Positions 2,560 through 10,879 of a stretch of DNA of 21,288 nt are shown one piece after another. The DNA is from a virus, in the IMG/VR virus record IMGVR_UViG_3300042987_003558, positions 1 to 21,288 of that record. One strand, 5' to 3'. Made by a program: the position numbers and the translations under genes. How positions within the stretch are numbered: position 1 is the first letter of the stretch; every line of letters begins with the position of its first letter. Below the pieces are notes generated by a model. It was not told where the DNA came from, ran no database searches, and saw nothing but the letters and a program-made list of their open reading frames with translations.

Positions 2560-2897
2560 GGTTCAAAGACCTGGACAAATGTTGCATCTATTCTACTGCG
2601 GTCCGCGTCAAACATCTCTCTGGTCCACCCTCGGCAGATCCATTTGTAACTAACGACTTCGTTTGGCGGGGTCCAATCAAAAGAAGCCGAATCAAGTGCG
2701 CGTGCATCAAGAAAACTTTCTACAATATTCGCGTCGGCTTCAGACAAATTGAAGCTCAGCGCCCATTCCTTCGGATTTTGATGCAAGCCAAACGCAAGGC
2801 GTTGTTGATAACCATCTCCAAACTCGACAACTCTCGTCTTGGGAGCGCTTGTTTTTGTCGCGGAGTAATTGGGCTGATAGCTGGGGAAGGTTGCCAT
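2556..2897 (-). CDS. Minor tail tip protein, lambda gpM-like
   Basis: 113 residues, close to the 109 of lambda gpM. The signature is clear: VVEFGDGYQQRLAFGLHQNP (residues about 23-42), then KEWALSFNLSEADANIVESFLDAR and a WTPP motif near residue 76. FGDGYxQR, followed by a Trp-containing strand and F-x-W-T-P-P, is characteristic of the phage minor tail family to which gpM belongs. That protein joins the tape-measure complex at the distal tail tip. The ATG shares one base with the tape-measure stop (TAATG), and the gene's own stop overlaps the next start (ATGA), so the three genes are translationally linked. Position directly after the tape measure is the same as in lambda. No oddities apart from the absence of gpL/K/I-type genes immediately after it. 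Confidence 0.9.
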   Translation of the reverse strand: MATFPSYQPNYSATKTSAPKTRVVEFGDGYQQRLAFGLHQNPKEWALSFNLSEADANIVESFLDARALDSASFDWTPPNEVVSYKWICRGWTREMFDADRSRIDATFVQVFEP

Positions 2898-5800
2898 TAG
2901 GAAAGAAGTCCTCCGGGCCGTTTTTGTTTGATAAGTTCCTGCTGAACAGCATTTGCAACAACGCGCCCAAGCTGATTTGCGCTTTGATCGTCGCCTTGCA
3001 CTTTGCTGCCGCTTGCATCAACATTCACAGTAACGTTGATCGACTCGCCCGAGCCGCTCGCATCGACACCCAGGCGCCCCCCTGGGCCGCGAGTGAGGGG
3101 CATGATGGCCTCTGGGCCGGCCTCACCCATCAACCCAGCGCTGAAGCCCGCCCCATCGGCAAAGCGGAACAGGGTTGGCGAGGAGACGATGGAGTTAGTG
3201 AACATCCCTCCTTTGGCAAAGGCGGTGAAGCCCCCGTCAAAAACGCCTCCGTTCGCGAGTGGCGCATATTTTGCAACGTTAGGATTCGAGCCAAGCGCTG
3301 TAGCAGCGTTGCCACCATCACCTCCCTTACCTCCAAACCCAGCAAACATTCTTGCAATGCCAATCGCGACATAGGTGGCAATCATTTGCGCGGCGGCTTG
3401 TAGCAAGGCATTGGCGACAGCGTTCAGGAATTGCGCAAAGACTTCCTGGGCAGTGGTTGTTCCTTTGACCAGCTCCGCAACTCCAGTTGTCATTGCCGTG
3501 CCAAAAGCATCGCCAACTGCAAGAACAGACTGCTGCATTCCCTCTGCCTGGACTTGCGCAAGAGTTAGTTGATTGGTCAATTCAGCAATTTCCCTGGCCT
3601 TGATGGCGCTCCCACTGCGCATCAGCTCAGACTCATACGCCTGTGCAGCGCCGCCGACAAAGCCAGCCCCAAGCCCAGCGCCAGTAGTTTGAATTTGACG
3701 CTGAAGTCCAGTTTTTTCCTCTTCAAATCGTCGCTGCTGAGCGAGCGCCAAAAGCTCTCTATCTAACTCGATTTGTTTTTGGGTATTAGATAGTCCAATC
3801 GCGAGCTGATCAATTAATTTTTGACGCTCTTGACCCTGCAATTTTGTATTTTGCAGAATTTCTTCGTTTTCTTTTTTTGTGTTTTTAATTTTTTCGGCAG
3901 CCTGAGAGTCGAACAAAAGCATCTCTTGTTTATCTTGAGATATTGAGTCAATAGCACCAAGCTCTGCCTTCGCTAAAGCAACAGCCTCGCGTCGCTGCTT
4001 AAGTTCAATCTGCCCGCGAGCAACTTCATAAAGCCTTTGAAGCGCTCCCTGCTCTCTTAATTTTGTCAGTTGCTGTTCAAGATTTAACGACTGACGTTGA
4101 ATTGCTTCATCGCGTGCGTTCAACGTAGTCATTTGCCCGCCAACAGCTCCGGGCGAAACCATCGGTACGTTTGGTCTCTTGATTCCAGAAGAGGCTGATT
4201 GATATTGACTAACAAGAGGGTTAATCGCTTCCCCTGACTCCCAGGCTTTTGTAATAGTATTAAGTGCATTCCACGCGTCGCCAACAGAAGCGCCCTTCAG
4301 TGGATTAACGTGTGTGGTCACATGCGCACCAAATGTTCTCCCGGTTATGCCCTGAGCGCCCAGCATTCCACCAGCGGGAATTTTTGCCCCTTTCGCAACA
4401 TTAATTTTATCGAAATGTCCAAGCAGCAGTTCATACGTTTTTCCGCCAAGCTTAAATTCGCCTGTTATCCAATTGCCATAGCCTTTTCCTGTAGAGCCAG
4501 CCCCCTTTCCCTGGAAGCCAGTGCCTGTAATCGTTAAATCTATGGGCGAGCGAACACCGGCTCCGCGACCACCCGGCATGACAATATCCCAGCCTGTTTT
4601 TTCAGCGTCAGGATCTCTCTTTCTTGAAGTAAAAGCTCCTCCACCAAAGCTAGCAGGTTTAGCGCCACCAGCTTTTCTCTTTGCTTCGGCAATTCTGGCC
4701 TCATCTTCAATCTGTCGCTGAATTTTCAGCCTATAATCAGCAACCTCCATTTCATAATTGAGAGTTGCGCGACGAATCCCGTCAATTTCTTTATTGAGTT
4801 GATAGATATAATTCTCTGTCTCTCGTTTTTGCTTGGCAATATCAAGCTCAAGCATTCTCTTTTTGCTTTCAATTTGCGCCTCACCCTCAGCTTTGGTGCG
4901 CATTACTTCTGCTTCCGCAGCTAAAACTTCTGCGACGCGACCTTCTTCATTCGCAATGCGACGGCGATACTCCAGATCGGCCGTTTCAATCGCAATTTGC
5001 TTGCGAAGCTGATCAGCCTCAATCTGTCGGCGTTGAATTTGTTGCTGTTTATTGAAAATATCTTCAGCAATTCGACGCTGCAATTCAGCGCCCTGACGCT
5101 GCAGGTCAATTGATTGCTGTTGAAGTTGAAAGCCTTCGCGATAAGCAGATTTGATTTCGTCTGCTACTTGACGTGATTTCTGGAAAACAGTTTCCTGCTC
5201 CTCTGGAGACAAAGGCTGAATTTTTGCCTGCTGCGGGGCGATCCTGTTGAGAATCTCTTCTCGCGCCTTTACTCCTGCTCCGGATATGCCAGCTCTCTCA
5301 CCAGAAAGCTTTGCTAGCTCCGCAGCAAAAGCCTGTCTCTGGTCTGGCGTCAATCCAGCAATTCGCTCGCCCAGGCCAACAACTTTGTTGGACTCAACTT
5401 TTGCGCCAACAACCCTAGCAACAAGATTCAGAAAGTCGCCAACAGGCCCAGCGACAAGAGCCTGCATTTGATAATTCAACTCGGCCCACTTCTTGCTTAA
5501 ATTATCTGCAGAAATACCAAGATCAATTAGATCATTGTAGCCTTCAACGCCAACTTTGCTGATAATTTGAGCTTGAATTTGCGCAGCAGCCTCCGCAACC
5601 CTTCCAGATTCTATTAATTTTGAAATATAGTACTCTTGCTGCCTACTTGCAAACAGGCTGGCCTCTTTAAGCTTGTCAAAATTCTCTGCTGGATATTTTA
5701 GGGCTCTACCTGTATCCTGCGCGGCTTGACCGAGCGTATCAAATGCGGTACCAAGCGCAGTGCCGATCAGCGAAAGACCAAAGCCCAGGCCGCCACCAGC

Positions 5801-8800
5801 AAAACCACCAGCAAAACCACCGACGCCACCGCCGATCGAGGCCCCCAGGCCTTGGCCAAACAGCAACGGGAACGCGCCACCGATCACGCCCTCGCTGATT
5901 CCACGAGCAGCCCTAGGACCAACGCGACGGGTCAAAAAGCCGGCCTCGGGTGAACGGCGTTCAGTTTCTCGACTGAGAATTCCAAGCTGTTGAGTCAGCT
6001 CTCGGAAGTCTTGAGTTGTTGGATCAATGCGTTGACGAAGCTCGTTCAAGCGAGCAGCTAATTCTTCAATTTGCTCTCCAGTGGCGCGAGCAATAGGAGC
6101 AAGATCACCAAGCCCCAGAGCACGCTGAAGATCATTAACATTTTGCGGTCCGCCTGCACCAGCGGCGCCGCCACGGCCACCGCCACCAAAGCCGCCAGGC
6201 GGCAAAATACCTGCAATGCCGCCAAGTACGGACGGAACAGCATTGCGAACTTTGTCTATTGCATCTCTGAGACCATCGGTAATCGTAAAACCAAGTATCT
6301 CAAGGGAATCGAGCAGAGAGTCAGAAATGCGTTGAGAAACATTTCCAATCGCAGAAGAAATGCCAAGTCTCTTTTCGCCCGTGATTACATCTGAAATCCT
6401 GGAAAGAGTGCCAGATTTTTGACCGGCTGCAATTCCGCGAGCTTCCTGGACAATTCGCTCTGCCTGCGTAAGATCAGGGCCTTGCTGCAAGCGGCGTGCA
6501 AGCCTGGCAGCGCCAAGGCGAGCAGAAGAAGTAAGAACTCGCGTGATCGCTTCAAATTGTGAATCTTCACCTTCCCAGAAATTATTAACCGCTGCTCGGT
6601 ACTGCTTGATGGACTCAAGCACGACCCTGCTTGCGTCGGTCGAGCGATTGCCTTTCGCGAGAATATTCGCAGGCCCGGAACTTGGAAATTTTGTAGTCGA
6701 AAGATTATATGCGGGGAAGTAAGGGAAGCCAGAGCCAGGAGCACCTATAGGAGGAGTGGAGCCCGGCTGGAAGATTGGGCTGAAAGCAGCAGAAGACTGC
6801 GTTTGGCCGCCGAAACGCCTAAATACAGAAGGCGCAAGGCCAACGCCAAATGCTCTTGACCTGACAGGAAGCCCAGGACCTATATCGCCATAGCCAGGGC
6901 CAAGATTTCTTTGTCCAAAAGTATTGTTAAAAGCATTGGCAACAGAAGGTGCTGCCGATGCAATTTCAACAATAAATGTTGAAACTAAGTTTTCAACAAG
7001 CTCTTGAATAAATTTAGACGGGCTCGCAATTCCAAATGCTTTTTCGATCGCCTGTTTAATCACATCAGCGAAAGATTTAGCCGCCACAGCGGCGGACGAA
7101 GCACCTCCCTTAAGGCTACTGGAGAAAGTAGAAACTAAATTGTTGCCCGTTTTCCCCGCATTAGGAACAACACGATTAAAGTCAGTGACAATTTTGCTAA
7201 TCTCTTGCTGAACTTGTTGCGACGACAATGCAGCTCCGAAACCGGACTCGCCTTTCGCCTGAGCACTTCTTTTCTGTGCAGCTAGGTAACGAGGGCTGCC
7301 AACCATAGTTGCACTGCCCAGGATTGGCGACGAAGGATAACCTTTTTGCGCGTCCCGTATTGATTTATCTGCTGCCTTGCTTGCCGCTTCGGCCGCTTTT
7401 TGTAATTTCAGTTGAGCGGATTCTTGTGCTTTCAGCCATCGCGGGCTTCCAACAATAGAAGTTGCCCCAAGTATCGGAGAGGACGGGTAGCCCCTTTGCG
7501 ACTCCCTGAGTGCTTTATCGGCTGCTCGCTCAGCGGCGCGAGCAATTTGCTGTTGAATTTTCGCGGCACGCTCTTCTGCTAAACGCTGAGAATTCGCACG
7601 CCTCTCTGCAGCAGCGCGATCTCTAGCACGCGCTGCAACAAATTTTGGACTGCCAACCATCGTGGCAGAACCACCAATCGGAGAGGATGGATAACCCTTT
7701 TGCGACTCCCTAAGGATTCTTGCCGCTTCCGAATTTGCGGCCCTTTCCGCTATTGCGGCAACTCTTTCTTGCGCTCGAAGCGCTTTTTCTGCAGCTGCTC
7801 TTGCTCTTTCTTGCGCGGCAAGAAAACGTGGGCTGCCAACCATGGCCACAGTGCCACCGATCGGAGAGGCTGGATAGCCTTTCTGGGCAGCGGAAAGGGC
7901 GGCCTGCTCTGCTTTGCGCTGAGCCTGCAGAGCCTTTGGGCTGCCTGGGAAATTTACGCCTCCACCAACGGGAGAGCGTGGCGCAAATTTTGCAATTCTG
8001 CCGGCTGCCTCTTTTGATTCTCTCTCAATACGGCCTATCGCCGCACTCGCTTTTCTTAGGGCTTCGGAATACGCCTGCTGATCACCGCTACGTGAAGCCT
8101 TAATAACTTCCTCTGCACCAGTTCTTAGCTCTTTAATTTTTCTTTGAGGCTGCACCCCAAGACCACTAATTGCTGTAACGCGCTCTTGGAGCCTGCGACC
8201 AGCCTCAAAGCCCTTATTGGAAAGGGACTGAAGCCTATTGAACTCATTTTGGCTTTCAACTATTCTGCCAAGTTCTGTGGCAAGATTTCTAATCAGTCGA
8301 AGATTTTTTGATCCAGATCCACCAGCAGCATCGTAAGCAGCCTGAATACTACGCGCTTGCCCCTGAAGCTCCTGTGATAGCCCTTTGCCGCCGCCACCTC
8401 TAGAAAACTTACGGAGCCTAGTCTGAAAAAGTTCATTGGCAGCATTCAGCCTTGATTCAGCAATAATTCTCGATTCAGTCTGCCTAAGAAGTATTCTATT
8501 GTTGCTAATTTGATCCCTAGCGTTAACAGCTTCAGCATTGGCCCTTGAAAGCGAAACTCTCGCCAGCCTTTGCTCAACAACAGCCCTTCTTCTATCAGCA
8601 AAAGCGGCAAATCTAGCTTGTCTGTCTGGATCGCGAACAAATCGACCGCCCTCGCCACGCGGCTGCTGTGTACCAGCAACATTTAGACGAATCTGCGAAC
8701 GTTGCAGAGCGCCAGAAGCACTTCTCCATTTTCTTTCTATCTGCGCAATACTATCTTCAATGGCATTTAGCTGACTGGCAAGATTATTGATATTTCTTTG

Positions 8801-8842
8801 ACCGGCAACTAAAATATTAATCTGTGCGTCGTAACTAGCCAC
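2897..8842 (-). CDS. Tail tape measure protein with tandem repeats and embedded M23-like domain
   Basis: 1981 residues, a length fitting a long non-contractile tail. Residues 1-280 are Ala/Arg/Gln-rich predicted coiled coil. Residues about 288-525 carry five imperfect copies of a GYPSSPIxGxxxxVGSPRxLxAQ unit joined by basic helical linkers. A SPSKFIQELVENLVSTF motif near 605-620 is of the type common in tape measures. A Gly-rich hydrophobic stretch lies around 965-1045, long coiled coils follow, an M23-like domain sits at about 1410-1520, a second hydrophobic segment lies near 1813-1840, and the C-terminus has GEAGPEAIMPLTRGPGGRLGV, typical of lambda gpH-like proteins. It sets tail length and probably contacts the host envelope at DNA entry. 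It starts with GTG at 8842, with only a weak AGG upstream, and lies just after a strong terminator, so it may have its own promoter. It ends TAATG into the gpM gene. Confidence 0.95.
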   Translation of the reverse strand: MASYDAQINILVAGQRNINNLASQLNAIEDSIAQIERKWRSASGALQRSQIRLNVAGTQQPRGEGGRFVRDPDRQARFAAFADRRRAVVEQRLARVSLSRANAEAVNARDQISNNRILLRQTESRIIAESRLNAANELFQTRLRKFSRGGGGKGLSQELQGQARSIQAAYDAAGGSGSKNLRLIRNLATELGRIVESQNEFNRLQSLSNKGFEAGRRLQERVTAISGLGVQPQRKIKELRTGAEEVIKASRSGDQQAYSEALRKASAAIGRIERESKEAAGRIAKFAPRSPVGGGVNFPGSPKALQAQRKAEQAALSAAQKGYPASPIGGTVAMVGSPRFLAAQERARAAAEKALRAQERVAAIAERAANSEAARILRESQKGYPSSPIGGSATMVGSPKFVAARARDRAAAERRANSQRLAEERAAKIQQQIARAAERAADKALRESQRGYPSSPILGATSIVGSPRWLKAQESAQLKLQKAAEAASKAADKSIRDAQKGYPSSPILGSATMVGSPRYLAAQKRSAQAKGESGFGAALSSQQVQQEISKIVTDFNRVVPNAGKTGNNLVSTFSSSLKGGASSAAVAAKSFADVIKQAIEKAFGIASPSKFIQELVENLVSTFIVEIASAAPSVANAFNNTFGQRNLGPGYGDIGPGLPVRSRAFGVGLAPSVFRRFGGQTQSSAAFSPIFQPGSTPPIGAPGSGFPYFPAYNLSTTKFPSSGPANILAKGNRSTDASRVVLESIKQYRAAVNNFWEGEDSQFEAITRVLTSSARLGAARLARRLQQGPDLTQAERIVQEARGIAAGQKSGTLSRISDVITGEKRLGISSAIGNVSQRISDSLLDSLEILGFTITDGLRDAIDKVRNAVPSVLGGIAGILPPGGFGGGGRGGAAGAGGPQNVNDLQRALGLGDLAPIARATGEQIEELAARLNELRQRIDPTTQDFRELTQQLGILSRETERRSPEAGFLTRRVGPRAARGISEGVIGGAFPLLFGQGLGASIGGGVGGFAGGFAGGGLGFGLSLIGTALGTAFDTLGQAAQDTGRALKYPAENFDKLKEASLFASRQQEYYISKLIESGRVAEAAAQIQAQIISKVGVEGYNDLIDLGISADNLSKKWAELNYQMQALVAGPVGDFLNLVARVVGAKVESNKVVGLGERIAGLTPDQRQAFAAELAKLSGERAGISGAGVKAREEILNRIAPQQAKIQPLSPEEQETVFQKSRQVADEIKSAYREGFQLQQQSIDLQRQGAELQRRIAEDIFNKQQQIQRRQIEADQLRKQIAIETADLEYRRRIANEEGRVAEVLAAEAEVMRTKAEGEAQIESKKRMLELDIAKQKRETENYIYQLNKEIDGIRRATLNYEMEVADYRLKIQRQIEDEARIAEAKRKAGGAKPASFGGGAFTSRKRDPDAEKTGWDIVMPGGRGAGVRSPIDLTITGTGFQGKGAGSTGKGYGNWITGEFKLGGKTYELLLGHFDKINVAKGAKIPAGGMLGAQGITGRTFGAHVTTHVNPLKGASVGDAWNALNTITKAWESGEAINPLVSQYQSASSGIKRPNVPMVSPGAVGGQMTTLNARDEAIQRQSLNLEQQLTKLREQGALQRLYEVARGQIELKQRREAVALAKAELGAIDSISQDKQEMLLFDSQAAEKIKNTKKENEEILQNTKLQGQERQKLIDQLAIGLSNTQKQIELDRELLALAQQRRFEEEKTGLQRQIQTTGAGLGAGFVGGAAQAYESELMRSGSAIKAREIAELTNQLTLAQVQAEGMQQSVLAVGDAFGTAMTTGVAELVKGTTTAQEVFAQFLNAVANALLQAAAQMIATYVAIGIARMFAGFGGKGGDGGNAATALGSNPNVAKYAPLANGGVFDGGFTAFAKGGMFTNSIVSSPTLFRFADGAGFSAGLMGEAGPEAIMPLTRGPGGRLGVDASGSGESINVTVNVDASGSKVQGDDQSANQLGRVVANAVQQELIKQKRPGGLLS
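4283..4615 (-). other. M23-like (LytM/lysostaphin fold) domain inside the tape measure, probably inactive
   Basis: Tape-measure residues about 1410-1520. Seen: KTGWDIVMPGGRGAGVRSP (1415-1433), GYGNWITG (1454-1461), LLGHFDKINVAKGAKIPAGG (1473-1492) and TGRTFGAHVTTHVNP (1500-1514). This order matches the M23 plan HxGxD ... GYGN ... YAHLS ... VxxGxxVxxGxxIGxxGxTG ... GPHLHFEV. The Asp (D1419) and the His of the HLS element (H1476) are kept, but the first metal ligand His is Lys1415, and the final HxH is spaced as H1507-x-x-x-H1511. A canonical zinc site is therefore unlikely. It may bind peptidoglycan or be structural. Confidence 0.7.
7280..7985 (-). repeat. Five protein-level SPIGG/GSP repeats in the tape measure
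   Basis: Units begin at about residues 288 (degenerate, APRSPVGGGVNFPGSPKALQAQ), 322 (GYPASPIGGTVAMVGSPRF), 383 (GYPSSPIGGSATMVGSPKF), 451 (GYPSSPILGATSIVGSPRW) and 501 (GYPSSPILGSATMVGSPRY). Each is followed by an Ala/Arg/Lys/Glu-rich helix of 12-45 residues, so spacing is irregular (34 to 68 residues). The proline-rich cores would break the coiled coil at intervals. Confidence 0.9.
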
Positions 8843-8910: not shown

Positions 8911-9141
8911 TCAGCGACGACGAGCAGTTTTTTTGGCGTCTTCAATGAGTTTGTCGTTGTTTCGCTTTTTGATCTTGAAATAAGCGTTCCAAAGAATCAT
9001 CTCCTCGTCTGTCATAGATTCCTTGAGCTGAGATAAGGTCATTTTCAACTCTTCTGCAAGAGCGAGTTGAAACATCAACCTCGAATCAGCCTCCAGTACC
9101 TTTTCAATCGCTTTTGATGTCGGGATCTTCTCCCTCACCAC
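8911..9141 (-). CDS. Tail assembly chaperone, T-like downstream frame
   Basis: The open frame after the last upstream stop gives about 76 residues from GTG 9141 (or 75 from GTG 9138). It is helical and charged: SKAIEKVLEADSRLMFQLAL, EELKMTLSQLKESMTDEEMI, LWNAYFKIKKRNND, then a basic tail ending TARRR. Leu-rich helix plus M-T-x-x-E-x-x-x-W-x-A-Y-F resembles the T domain of lambda GT and its analogues, which bind the major tail protein and tape measure during tail assembly. It overlaps the 3' end of the G-like gene by 38 bases in a frame one base ahead. Expression could be by a +1 (or -2) frameshift, giving a G-T fusion, or by starting at GTG 9138, which has TGAGG seven bases upstream. The sequence alone does not decide between these. 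Confidence 0.82.
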   Translation of the reverse strand: MVREKIPTSKAIEKVLEADSRLMFQLALAEELKMTLSQLKESMTDEEMILWNAYFKIKKRNNDKLIEDAKKTARRR

Positions 9142-9469
9142 GAGGCCTCAGAACGCAAAGGATCATCTTTTGCAGATCCTCGTCTTCAACTTCCCTTTTC
9201 AATACAGGAATATCTCCCGGCTTGAAAAGTTTGTCGCCATTTTCGTCGAGTGCTTTCATGACCAAAAGCTGCATGGCGAAACCATTGGTGTCGCTGCCGC
9301 CTTCTTTTTGGGCGCGTTCACGCTCAGCCGCATTCAACGGCGTAACGTAAAAAACATACTCGTCACCGCTGCCCAAGGTAATAACCTGTTTAATGGGCTC
9401 AAAATTTGCGGCTTTGCGAAGAATGTCAACGGCCCTGATCGGGCCGGAAGCAGAAGGTGTGACGGCCAT
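9104..9469 (-). CDS. Tail assembly chaperone, G-like
   Basis: 121 residues, MAVTPSASGPIRAVDILRKA at the start, then beta-rich ITLGSGDEYVFYVTPLNAAE and a helical ALDENGDKLFKPGDIPVLKR segment. Size, the acidic end and its place between major tail protein and tape measure fit the G member of the G/T tail chaperone pair. The overlap with the T-like frame supports this strongly. ATG 9469 has no Shine-Dalgarno, but a promoter-like TTGTCG-17-TATGAT lies 24-52 bases upstream. Near the end, codons GAT CCC GAC ATC AAA AGC GAT TGA contain a CCC that could slip to CCG in the +1 direction, joining the chain at the T-like residues TSKAIEK. Confidence 0.85.
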   Translation of the reverse strand: MAVTPSASGPIRAVDILRKAANFEPIKQVITLGSGDEYVFYVTPLNAAERERAQKEGGSDTNGFAMQLLVMKALDENGDKLFKPGDIPVLKREVEDEDLQKMILCVLRPRGEGEDPDIKSD

Positions 9470-9589: not shown

Positions 9590-10879
9590 TCAGCGCGAAA
9601 TCTCCTCCCAGTCCATAGAAGCGAGAATCGTGTCATCGCTGCTATCGGAAGCTATTACAAGAGAAATCTCGTACGGAGTGGAAGTAAAAGAATTGCGTTC
9701 AAGTTGAAACTTGAATAAGGCCTCTTTCAAAATATCAACGCTAGTAGCAGATTGATTTGAAGCGTTAAAAAATCCACTAGCAAGGATCCTTCCACCGGAA
9801 TGCGATGTTCCGCTAATGTTATACGAAACTGCACTGCTTGCTCCAGCGTCAACCCAAGTGCCCTCAGCAGTTGTGCCACTTGCACGCACCTGCCAATTGT
9901 AATTTCCAGTTGAAATTGCCATTGCGGATATGGCAGTCAGAATTACAATCGCATCCAGCCGATTGGGACTTGTTTTCAATCTTAGCGAGATGACTGGATA
10001 GAAGGTTCCAGCCGTACCTAGGGTGCGAGGGGTGTTCACTGGAATTGAAACCGCCTGTTGAAGACCCCTGAGTTCATAGCCGCCCTCGGAAATGACGGTC
10101 GAACAAATCTGCTTCAAAGTGCTAGCGCCAGAAGTGGCAGTAGTATTTTCTATTTCATAACGCAAGGGAAGCGAGGCAGTAGTAATATAAGTACTACCAA
10201 TAAGATTTGCGTGATTAAAAGAGTGACAATGGATGAAAACACCATTAATCGCAAAGCCGACGCGCACGCTTCCAACACCGAGCCATTCAATATCCATCCA
10301 CATAATCTGAGCCTTGGTCGGATCCAAGGTGATTCCGCTTGGCCCGGAGCCATTGAGTTTGTCGGCACTCCAATCAGATTGCGCAACTCGTGTATCAACA
10401 ATCACGCCACTCACGTAACTGCGCTTGCACAAATAAAGCGTGGAGTCTTGCAGCTCAAGATAAATGCCATTTAGCGTCCCAAAATATCCAACGCGTTGAC
10501 GCAATCCTGTTTTCGCGGGGCTAAGCGCAAAAGTATTCAACGCAAGCAAAGACTTTCCTGGCTGATAGCTAAAAACTTTAGTAGTCTCTCGGTAAACTCT
10601 AGATCCAGACGAAGAGGTAACAGAAAGGTCGACAAGTCCTTGGTTTGCGTTGAAAACGGCTGTTCCACCAGTTGCCGTATCAGCAGTCCAGAGCCCGTTA
10701 TCCGCAAAACGATGACTGGAGTCAAACAGTGTCAATGGGTTCGATACTCTGAGGCGCCCAAATGCGTCAACTGAGGCATCGGAAAAATCAGCATCAACCT
10801 CAAGCCGTCCGTCAGCTGTCGCGCCAATTTCCTTGGGTGCGCCAGTAGGCAGAGTTCCGTGAACAATTGCGTCGGGCAT
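9590..10879 (-). CDS. Virion structural protein of the AFGRLRVSNP family
   Basis: 429 residues. Residues 39-61 read AFGRLRVSNPLTLFDSSHRF followed by ADN, with QPGKS near 106, QRVGYFGTLNGIYLEL near 128-143, DIEWLGVGSVRVGF at 196-209 and YITTASLPLRYEI at 231-243. I recognise this as a family that recurs in marine and cyanobacterial phages, usually annotated only as hypothetical or structural. Residues about 280-429 form a second beta-rich domain ending SMDWEEISR. The N-terminal 35 residues (GATADGRLEVDADF) look like a short linker. Its position between the major tail protein and the tail chaperones suggests a tail decoration or tail-associated protein, but that is inference. ATG 10879 lies only 17 bases after a terminator's T-run and lacks a Shine-Dalgarno. 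The next gene is 120 bases away. Confidence 0.8.
   Translation of the reverse strand: MPDAIVHGTLPTGAPKEIGATADGRLEVDADFSDASVDAFGRLRVSNPLTLFDSSHRFADNGLWTADTATGGTAVFNANQGLVDLSVTSSSGSRVYRETTKVFSYQPGKSLLALNTFALSPAKTGLRQRVGYFGTLNGIYLELQDSTLYLCKRSYVSGVIVDTRVAQSDWSADKLNGSGPSGITLDPTKAQIMWMDIEWLGVGSVRVGFAINGVFIHCHSFNHANLIGSTYITTASLPLRYEIENTTATSGASTLKQICSTVISEGGYELRGLQQAVSIPVNTPRTLGTAGTFYPVISLRLKTSPNRLDAIVILTAISAMAISTGNYNWQVRASGTTAEGTWVDAGASSAVSYNISGTSHSGGRILASGFFNASNQSATSVDILKEALFKFQLERNSFTSTPYEISLVIASDSSDDTILASMDWEEISR

Follow-up and report, generated by a model that had tools for sequence, protein, structure and literature searches.

The window analysed here is a stretch of 21,288 nucleotides of viral DNA (positions 1 to 21,288 of the IMG/VR record IMGVR_UViG_3300042987_003558), whose tail-gene region contains, on the minus strand, two overlapping frames, G and T, followed by a long ORF assigned as the tape-measure gene (Table 1). 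T lies one base ahead of G, which corresponds to a +1 shift (equal to -2), and the question raised by this locus is how ribosomes translating G would reach T. A preliminary description of this DNA had placed the overlap between a T-frame TGA at 9150-9148, upstream of the opening of T, and the stop codon of G, and had stated that a fusion needs a +1 or a -2 shift; both the coordinates and the frame relation were confirmed. It had also offered two ways of expressing T, a slip on a CCC codon followed by G and separate initiation at a GTG codon, and the elements invoked for them (GAT CCC GAC, the GTG at 9138-9136 and a TGAGG seven bases upstream of it) are all present in the window.

Table 1. Features of the G-T region of the window, and the hairpin element of a -1 relative
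Feature	Coordinates	Strand	Remarks
G-like tail assembly chaperone frame	9104..9469	-	121 aa; TGA stop 9106-9104
T-like frame, +1 relative to G	8911..9147	-	78 sense codons, then TGA 8913-8911
Proposed +1 slip site AAA AGC	9110..9115	-	P-site codon AAA 9115-9113, A-site codon AGC 9112-9110
T domain of the predicted fusion, after the GCG (Ala) codon	8914..9108	-	IEKVLEADSRL..., 65 residues
CCC, slip codon proposed earlier	9121..9123	-	Not conserved; GCT, CCT, ACC, CCA and others elsewhere
GTG GTG, alternative starts 9138 and 9141	9136..9141	-	Not conserved
Tape-measure gene, directly after T	2897..8842	-	1981 aa; assigned chiefly from its length and location
Conserved double hairpin immediately downstream of the -1 site A AAA AAC	3349-3432 of L076 (KBS-S-2A), and relatives		Covariation in the first helix

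Identity of the G and T frames

The G protein of the window matched phrog_20784 (E 8.6e-25) and, weakly, phrog_344 "tail assembly chaperone" (E 0.0012), and its T matched the tail protein family phrog_337 (E 4.3e-6). With the window included, phrog_344 was matched by 22 of the 27 aligned G proteins and phrog_337 by 22 of the 27 aligned T proteins; the Pfam family TAC_13 gave weak matches to 10 of 27 G proteins (best 0.0026). A Pfam search of the window's own G and T gave no match, and no convincing relative was detected by sequence search of the PDB. The AlphaFold2 model of G (mean pLDDT 75.4, built on a 32-row alignment) had as its top PDB match the HK97 tail assembly chaperone 2ob9 (probability 1.00, E 3e-3, TM 0.49-0.54). 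The phrog_344, phrog_337 and 2ob9 matches support the earlier assignment as a G/T tail-chaperone pair, and we read the two frames as those of a tail assembly chaperone of the lambda type.

The frame of T among relatives

IMG/VR was scanned using as queries the G proteins of the window, KBS-S-2A, L102, L063, AG-345-A17 and L067, and the best 80 loci at most were kept for each query; for three queries these are the best 80 of 448, 575 and 595 confirmed relatives. The resulting set, composed of the IMG/VR matches listed plus four named phage records, contains 368 loci with G, window included, and is a sample rather than a census. Some contigs were recovered by two queries (e.g. L061/L114), and exact duplicates were dropped from the counts of distinct contexts.

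T was located in each locus by a T profile (HMM). It was found in 362 of the 368 loci, in the +1 frame in 258 and in the -1 frame in 104 of those listed, and never in frame with G, so the +1 overlap of the two genes is not a product of chance; the profile found no T in the remaining six loci (L070, L071, L091, L095, L191 and L304). Among the matches listed, the +1 form comes only from metagenomes and from the single-cell record AG-345-A17, and all the named relatives whose junction was read (KBS-S-2A, S-2L, S-H1, MED4-184, MED4-117, HTVC202P and HTVC026P) are -1.

A conserved AAA AGC near the end of G

The 3' end of G in the window reads GAT CCC GAC ATC AAA AGC GAT TGA, and the conserved element near the end of the gene is AAA AGC, located 3' of CCC GAC. 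An in-frame AAA AGN was present shortly before the G stop in 258 of 258 listed +1 loci, the A-site codon being AGC in 246, AGT in 7, AGA in 3 and AGG in 2. These loci give 196 distinct contexts, in which the G stop follows 1-9 sense codons after AAA. AAAAG does not vary in any of them, although the surrounding bases do, and in all 196 AAAA provides a conserved P-site codon able to re-pair in the +1 frame. This invariance is unexplained by either protein alone, because the G-frame residue is Ser or Arg, whereas the T-frame residue is Ala, Val, Gly, Asp or Glu.

Codon choice at the site is also constrained. Given each locus' own codon usage and assuming independence, finding AAA and not AAG at all 53 cluster representatives has a probability of ~10^-11.6, a value which overstates the case because the representatives are related. 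In the marine +1 group (~33% GC) AGC makes up 14-31% of AGY codons, yet 62 of 64 A-site Ser codons are AGC; in the window AGC represents 66% of AGY. Avoidance of AAA AGC elsewhere in these loci was not seen (22 occurrences against 26.8 expected in 68,913 codons), and the window's G holds a further in-frame AAA AGG (see below), so either the hexamer by itself causes little slipping or the rate is low.

The position of the site is as telling as its sequence. A T-frame stop stands directly before the slip codon in 158 of the 196 contexts (e.g. cTGA AAA GC) and T opens exactly there; in these the frame change must occur at or after the slip codon, because an upstream shift would meet that stop. 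In the window, T is open for ~33 bases further upstream of the slip, thus the site is not obvious from the window sequence alone. Across the 196 contexts, bases upstream of the site vary most at the third codon position of G (1.69 bits, vs 1.12 and 1.13 at the other two), and bases downstream of it at the third position of T (1.62 bits, vs 1.37 and 1.18). The window clade behaves likewise (G position 3 1.59 vs 0.86/0.97 before the site; T position 3 1.33 vs 0.63/0.37 after it), and the same switch from G third to T third position at the site was present in each of three clades tested. The constrained part of T, as marked by where T-phase third-position variation begins, starts at the slip site.

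These data bear directly on the CCC codon, where tRNA-Pro was proposed to slip +1 from CCC to CCG (9123-9120), giving ...EDP-TSKAIEK. Slipping on CCC is established for +1 in SPP1 gp17.1*, at CCCUAA (PMC6316719), and CCC G is present both in the window and in L002. However, CCC occupies this codon in just 10 of 46 window-clade contexts, and relatives having Ala, Thr, Val or others there still keep T in +1; moreover, in the 158 contexts mentioned above the T-frame stop right before AAA falls between the CCC position and the T domain. Even L004 (81% identical over the aligned G), which keeps CCC, has a T-frame TGA between CCC and T, so a +1 shift at its CCC would end at this TGA before reaching T. 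A slip at CCC is, in our judgement, highly improbable.

The other rival is independent translation of T from GTG 9141 or GTG 9138, using TGAGG as ribosome site. The window does offer the start codons (a second GTG, at 9141-9139, directly precedes GTG 9138), a 5-base SD-like element and a T frame open far enough upstream to include both GTGs, and a T-frame start of some kind precedes the slip in 20 of the 196 contexts. The other 176 lack any T-frame ATG, GTG or TTG there, and in such contexts the first T-frame start appears 6-58 codons into T and is absent in 4, so that usable T starts are lacking in most relatives. Within the window clade, 18 of 46 contexts have an upstream start, at five different offsets, and 28 have none; GTG 9138 is lost even in L002, which reads GTG GCG at this position and whose G is 100% identical. 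Where T is open upstream (22 contexts of this clade), the 24-base stretch preceding the slip varies most at G position 3 (1.30 vs 0.75/0.64 bits), and since G position 3 is T position 2, no T-frame selection is seen upstream of the slip. Separate initiation is therefore very unlikely, and conservation across the relatives, when checked, sustains neither the CCC-G nor the GTG put forward previously.

Proposed slip and predicted product

A +1 slip of tRNA-Lys at AAA AGC (9115-9110), yielding a 185-residue G-T chaperone, is very probably the way in which T is reached in the window, as judged from comparison of sequences. Most ribosomes would end G at its TGA, while in a minority the peptidyl-tRNA-Lys on AAA 9115-9113, with AGC waiting in the A site and its slow decoding as the putative trigger, would move one base forward along the AAAA run (9115-9112). 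There tRNA-Lys would re-pair perfectly on AAA 9114-9112 and GCG (9111-9109) would be read next as the first +1 codon. The resulting fusion, ...GEGEDPDIK-A-IEKVLEADSRL..., would consist of 119 G residues, one Ala and 65 further residues, and by analogy with lambda gpGT it would link the tape measure and the tail-tube subunits.

The same final frame would be reached by a -2 slip in the AAA AGC region, a kind of shift known in the tail chaperones of Mu (PMC5009743) and of phage 9g, at CCCUUUUUUU (PMC4276943). Nevertheless, the slip sequences of those phages are different, and a -2 movement would force tRNA-Lys to re-pair on UGA, UAA, CCA and similar triplets: one of three bases is matched in 160 contexts and two of three in 36, a poor pairing when compared with the +1 slip, where three of three are matched in all 196. 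These counts agree with the earlier remark that no good -2 heptamer is present, and we regard a -2 shift as having only a very small chance of being correct. A +1 slip is favoured also, in part, because orthologues have canonical -1 heptamers at the homologous point. A canonical -1 shift on an X XXY YYZ heptamer was considered for the window and ruled out, given that T is +1.

Signals flanking the proposed slip sites

In the KBS-S-2A-like -1 phages, the double hairpin listed in Table 1 has an RNAalifold energy of -39.4 kcal/mol (10 sequences). On 15 distinct rows helix 1 was 97.9% paired, against at most 49% for slid versions, and 14 cells over the two helices were changed on both sides. Over the 20 rows of -1 loci with A heptamers, the fold z averaged -3.09. 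No consensus structure was obtained for the +1 sister clade of these phages (54 sequences), and in the window clade no downstream RNA structure was found (mean z -0.31; empty RNAalifold consensus, 43 sequences). No clear up- or downstream stimulator was found in the window clade. In vitro, upstream duplexes raise +1 and weaken -1 shifting and downstream structures do the opposite (PMC6321510); these effects, as described in that source, fit the pattern seen here of a -1 form with a 3' hairpin and a +1 sister without it.

Pairing of the SD type upstream of the slip differed among +1 clades. In the window clade the best pairing was -7.05 kcal/mol, vs -6.42 in permuted codons; the corresponding values were -10.97 vs -6.68 kcal/mol in the marine clade and -7.62 vs -4.98 in a mixed set of other +1 loci (n=9), while in the KBS-like clade pairing was weaker than in permuted codons (-7.21 vs -8.16). 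An SD stimulator common to every +1 clade was thus rejected, since within-gene synonymous permutation kept it clearly only in the marine clade and the mixed set.

The marine +1 clade deserves a separate description. In its 67 contexts synonymous change is nearly absent at most of codons -10 to -3, where the sequence is often AAG GAG GTN ... GAG GCT AAA GCC, and a Shine-Dalgarno core lies 23-30 bases upstream of the slip, a spacing much longer than that of prfB. Some 10 codons ahead of the slip, an SD-like AAGGAGGT and an invariant GGCTAAAGCC are present in L078 and its marine relatives. Together these elements may possibly act as a 5' stimulator of the +1 slip with unusually long spacing. The invariant GGC-UAAA-GCC could form a small hairpin, a structure without covariation support because the segment never varies.

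Direction of the proposed shift within the family

Among the 104 listed -1 loci the junction is A AAA AAC in 59, G GGA AAG in 12 (the heptamer of lambda), A AAA AAA in 11, C CCA AAG in 7 and C CCA AAA in 5, with CCC AAG AAC lacking a full heptamer in 10. The slip points of both forms are homologous, as seen when ...VDM-K-A-LKRELSKDN... of L136 (+1) is aligned to ...VDV-K-N-LKRELKQDN... of L084 (-1), two loci whose G plus T are 76.5% identical; L344 (+1) and L343 (-1) are 79.7% identical. The -1 sisters would, as read from their sequences, make fusions of a length matching that of the +1 fusions.

A careful tree was built from the short proteins of 78 cluster representatives, leaving out the long-branch rows L075, L077, L079, L117 and L207 (all -1). 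Three changes of direction are needed on this tree, of which at least two are required by supported branches; a single change sufficed in none of the 200 bootstrap trees, and holding all +1 rows together was rejected (p-AU 0.0125). A quick tree of 83 rows, including the five long-branch ones, needs six changes. The +1 group L101-L110 is nested in a clade of 26 rows (support 100/99) whose remaining members are -1, thus this group is likely to have passed from -1 to +1, with the same AAA AGC. Based on these trees, shift direction has probably flipped at least twice in this G-T family.

We consider it reasonably likely that direction is evolutionarily switchable, with -1 sites (A AAA AAC, C CCA AAR, G GGA AAG) and +1 sites (AAA AGN) replacing each other at least twice while the fusion form was kept; this includes that the +1 clade of the KBS-S-2A lineage regained the AAA AGC of distant +1 clades. 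If true, AAA AGN plus its 5' elements would be a reusable bacterial +1 cassette, and a working rule would be contradicted, by which orthologues that rely on ribosomal frameshifting keep its direction, as observed by Antonov et al. 2013 (PMC3711429). The flips found here are an exception to this rule as worded in that source. Differences in direction have already been listed for Listeria phage coat proteins and for a fungal gene (PMC5009743).

Antonov et al. 2013 (PMC3711429) interpreted the occurrence of both directions in a single family as pointing to transcriptional slippage, which, together with assembly errors, has to be weighed as a source of the shifted frames without ribosomal frameshifting. 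However, the run in the window has four A, compared with the runs of more than seven A in that work, the -1 relatives have heptamers of the tRNA type, accompanied in one clade by a supported 3' hairpin, and a single site common to 196 distinct contexts argues against both slippage and assembly errors. We regard an origin of this kind as extremely improbable.

Comparison with known systems

The locus resembles lambda gpG/gpGT in gene order (tail genes, G, T, tape measure) and in having the shift near the 3' end of G, and differs from it in the +1 direction of the window, in the use of AAA AGN instead of X XXY YYZ and in that no 3' structure was found in the window clade. The cyanophage KBS-S-2A and its relatives share orthologous G and T, a homologous shift point and predicted fusions matching in length and context, but KBS-S-2A itself uses -1 at A AAA AAC, followed by the strong double hairpin. 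A P-site tRNA slipping +1, as proposed here, is the mechanism of prfB (CUU UGA) and SPP1 gp17.1* (CCC UAA), where the A site is slow; there CUU or CCC abuts a stop, whereas in the present family AAA precedes a sense codon and the stop comes later. Natural +1 programmed sites in bacteria are few.

According to Atkins et al. 2016 (PMC5009743), tailed phages variously use -1, -2 or +1 shifts for the chaperone fusion, and the same source considers a +1 fusion "very likely" in the haloarchaeal myovirus HSTV-2, which has an archaeal host and is likened to the window here by shift direction alone. PRFect searches for four identical bases as its forward motif, but its authors state that a general motif for forward shifts is yet to be identified (PMC10274946). 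In the open-access literature no paper was recognised as describing this site or family. Shifting of +1 type in tail chaperones is already known; the AAA AGC site and the flips of direction are the new part. The 196 distinct contexts (53 clusters, among the matches listed) represent one invariant forward site accompanied by close -1 relatives with an equivalent predicted protein, thereby offering a ready comparison of what sets the direction in which the ribosome slips.

Other features of the loci

A second in-frame motif of this type, AAA AGG, occurs inside the window's G (9194-9199, minus strand), and another in-frame AAAAG in G was seen in 3 of 53 +1 representatives. Among -1 loci, L318, L321, L322, L324, L331, L335, L336, L337, L347, L364 and L369 have the junction C CCC AAG AAC followed by a stop, with no full X XXY YYZ; such junctions may permit slipping of the P-site tRNA alone, on C CCC. 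L371 and L373 (MED4-184 and MED4-117), also -1, have the junction GCA AAG GAA TCC TAA, without a standard heptamer.

The tape-measure ORF of the window matched Tape_meas_lam_C with E 0.67, below cut-off, and its residues 1416-1513 are Peptidase_M23-like (24.4 bits, under the Pfam cut-off of 28.7). Immediately before G lies a 429-aa ORF (9590-10879, minus strand) belonging to the virion structural protein family phrog_1645 (E 7e-142). KBS-S-2A and S-2L have no gene of this type ahead of G; in S-2L that place is taken by the major tail gene, the G homologue of this phage lying between the annotated major tail and tape-measure genes. No tRNA gene was found in the window, and the psbA family PF00124 was found in 0 of 34 large records.

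The T frame is unannotated in KBS-S-2A, S-2L, HTVC202P, HTVC026P, MED4-184 and MED4-117 (in the set L076, L077, L079, L370-L373), and in S-H1 a shorter separate hypothetical protein is annotated at T; a fusion that environmental phages need has thus been missed by annotators. A scan of GTDB genome contigs gave one G relative, L369, in a gammaproteobacterial metagenome bin, and this single case suggests that the phages of this family seldom occur as prophages.
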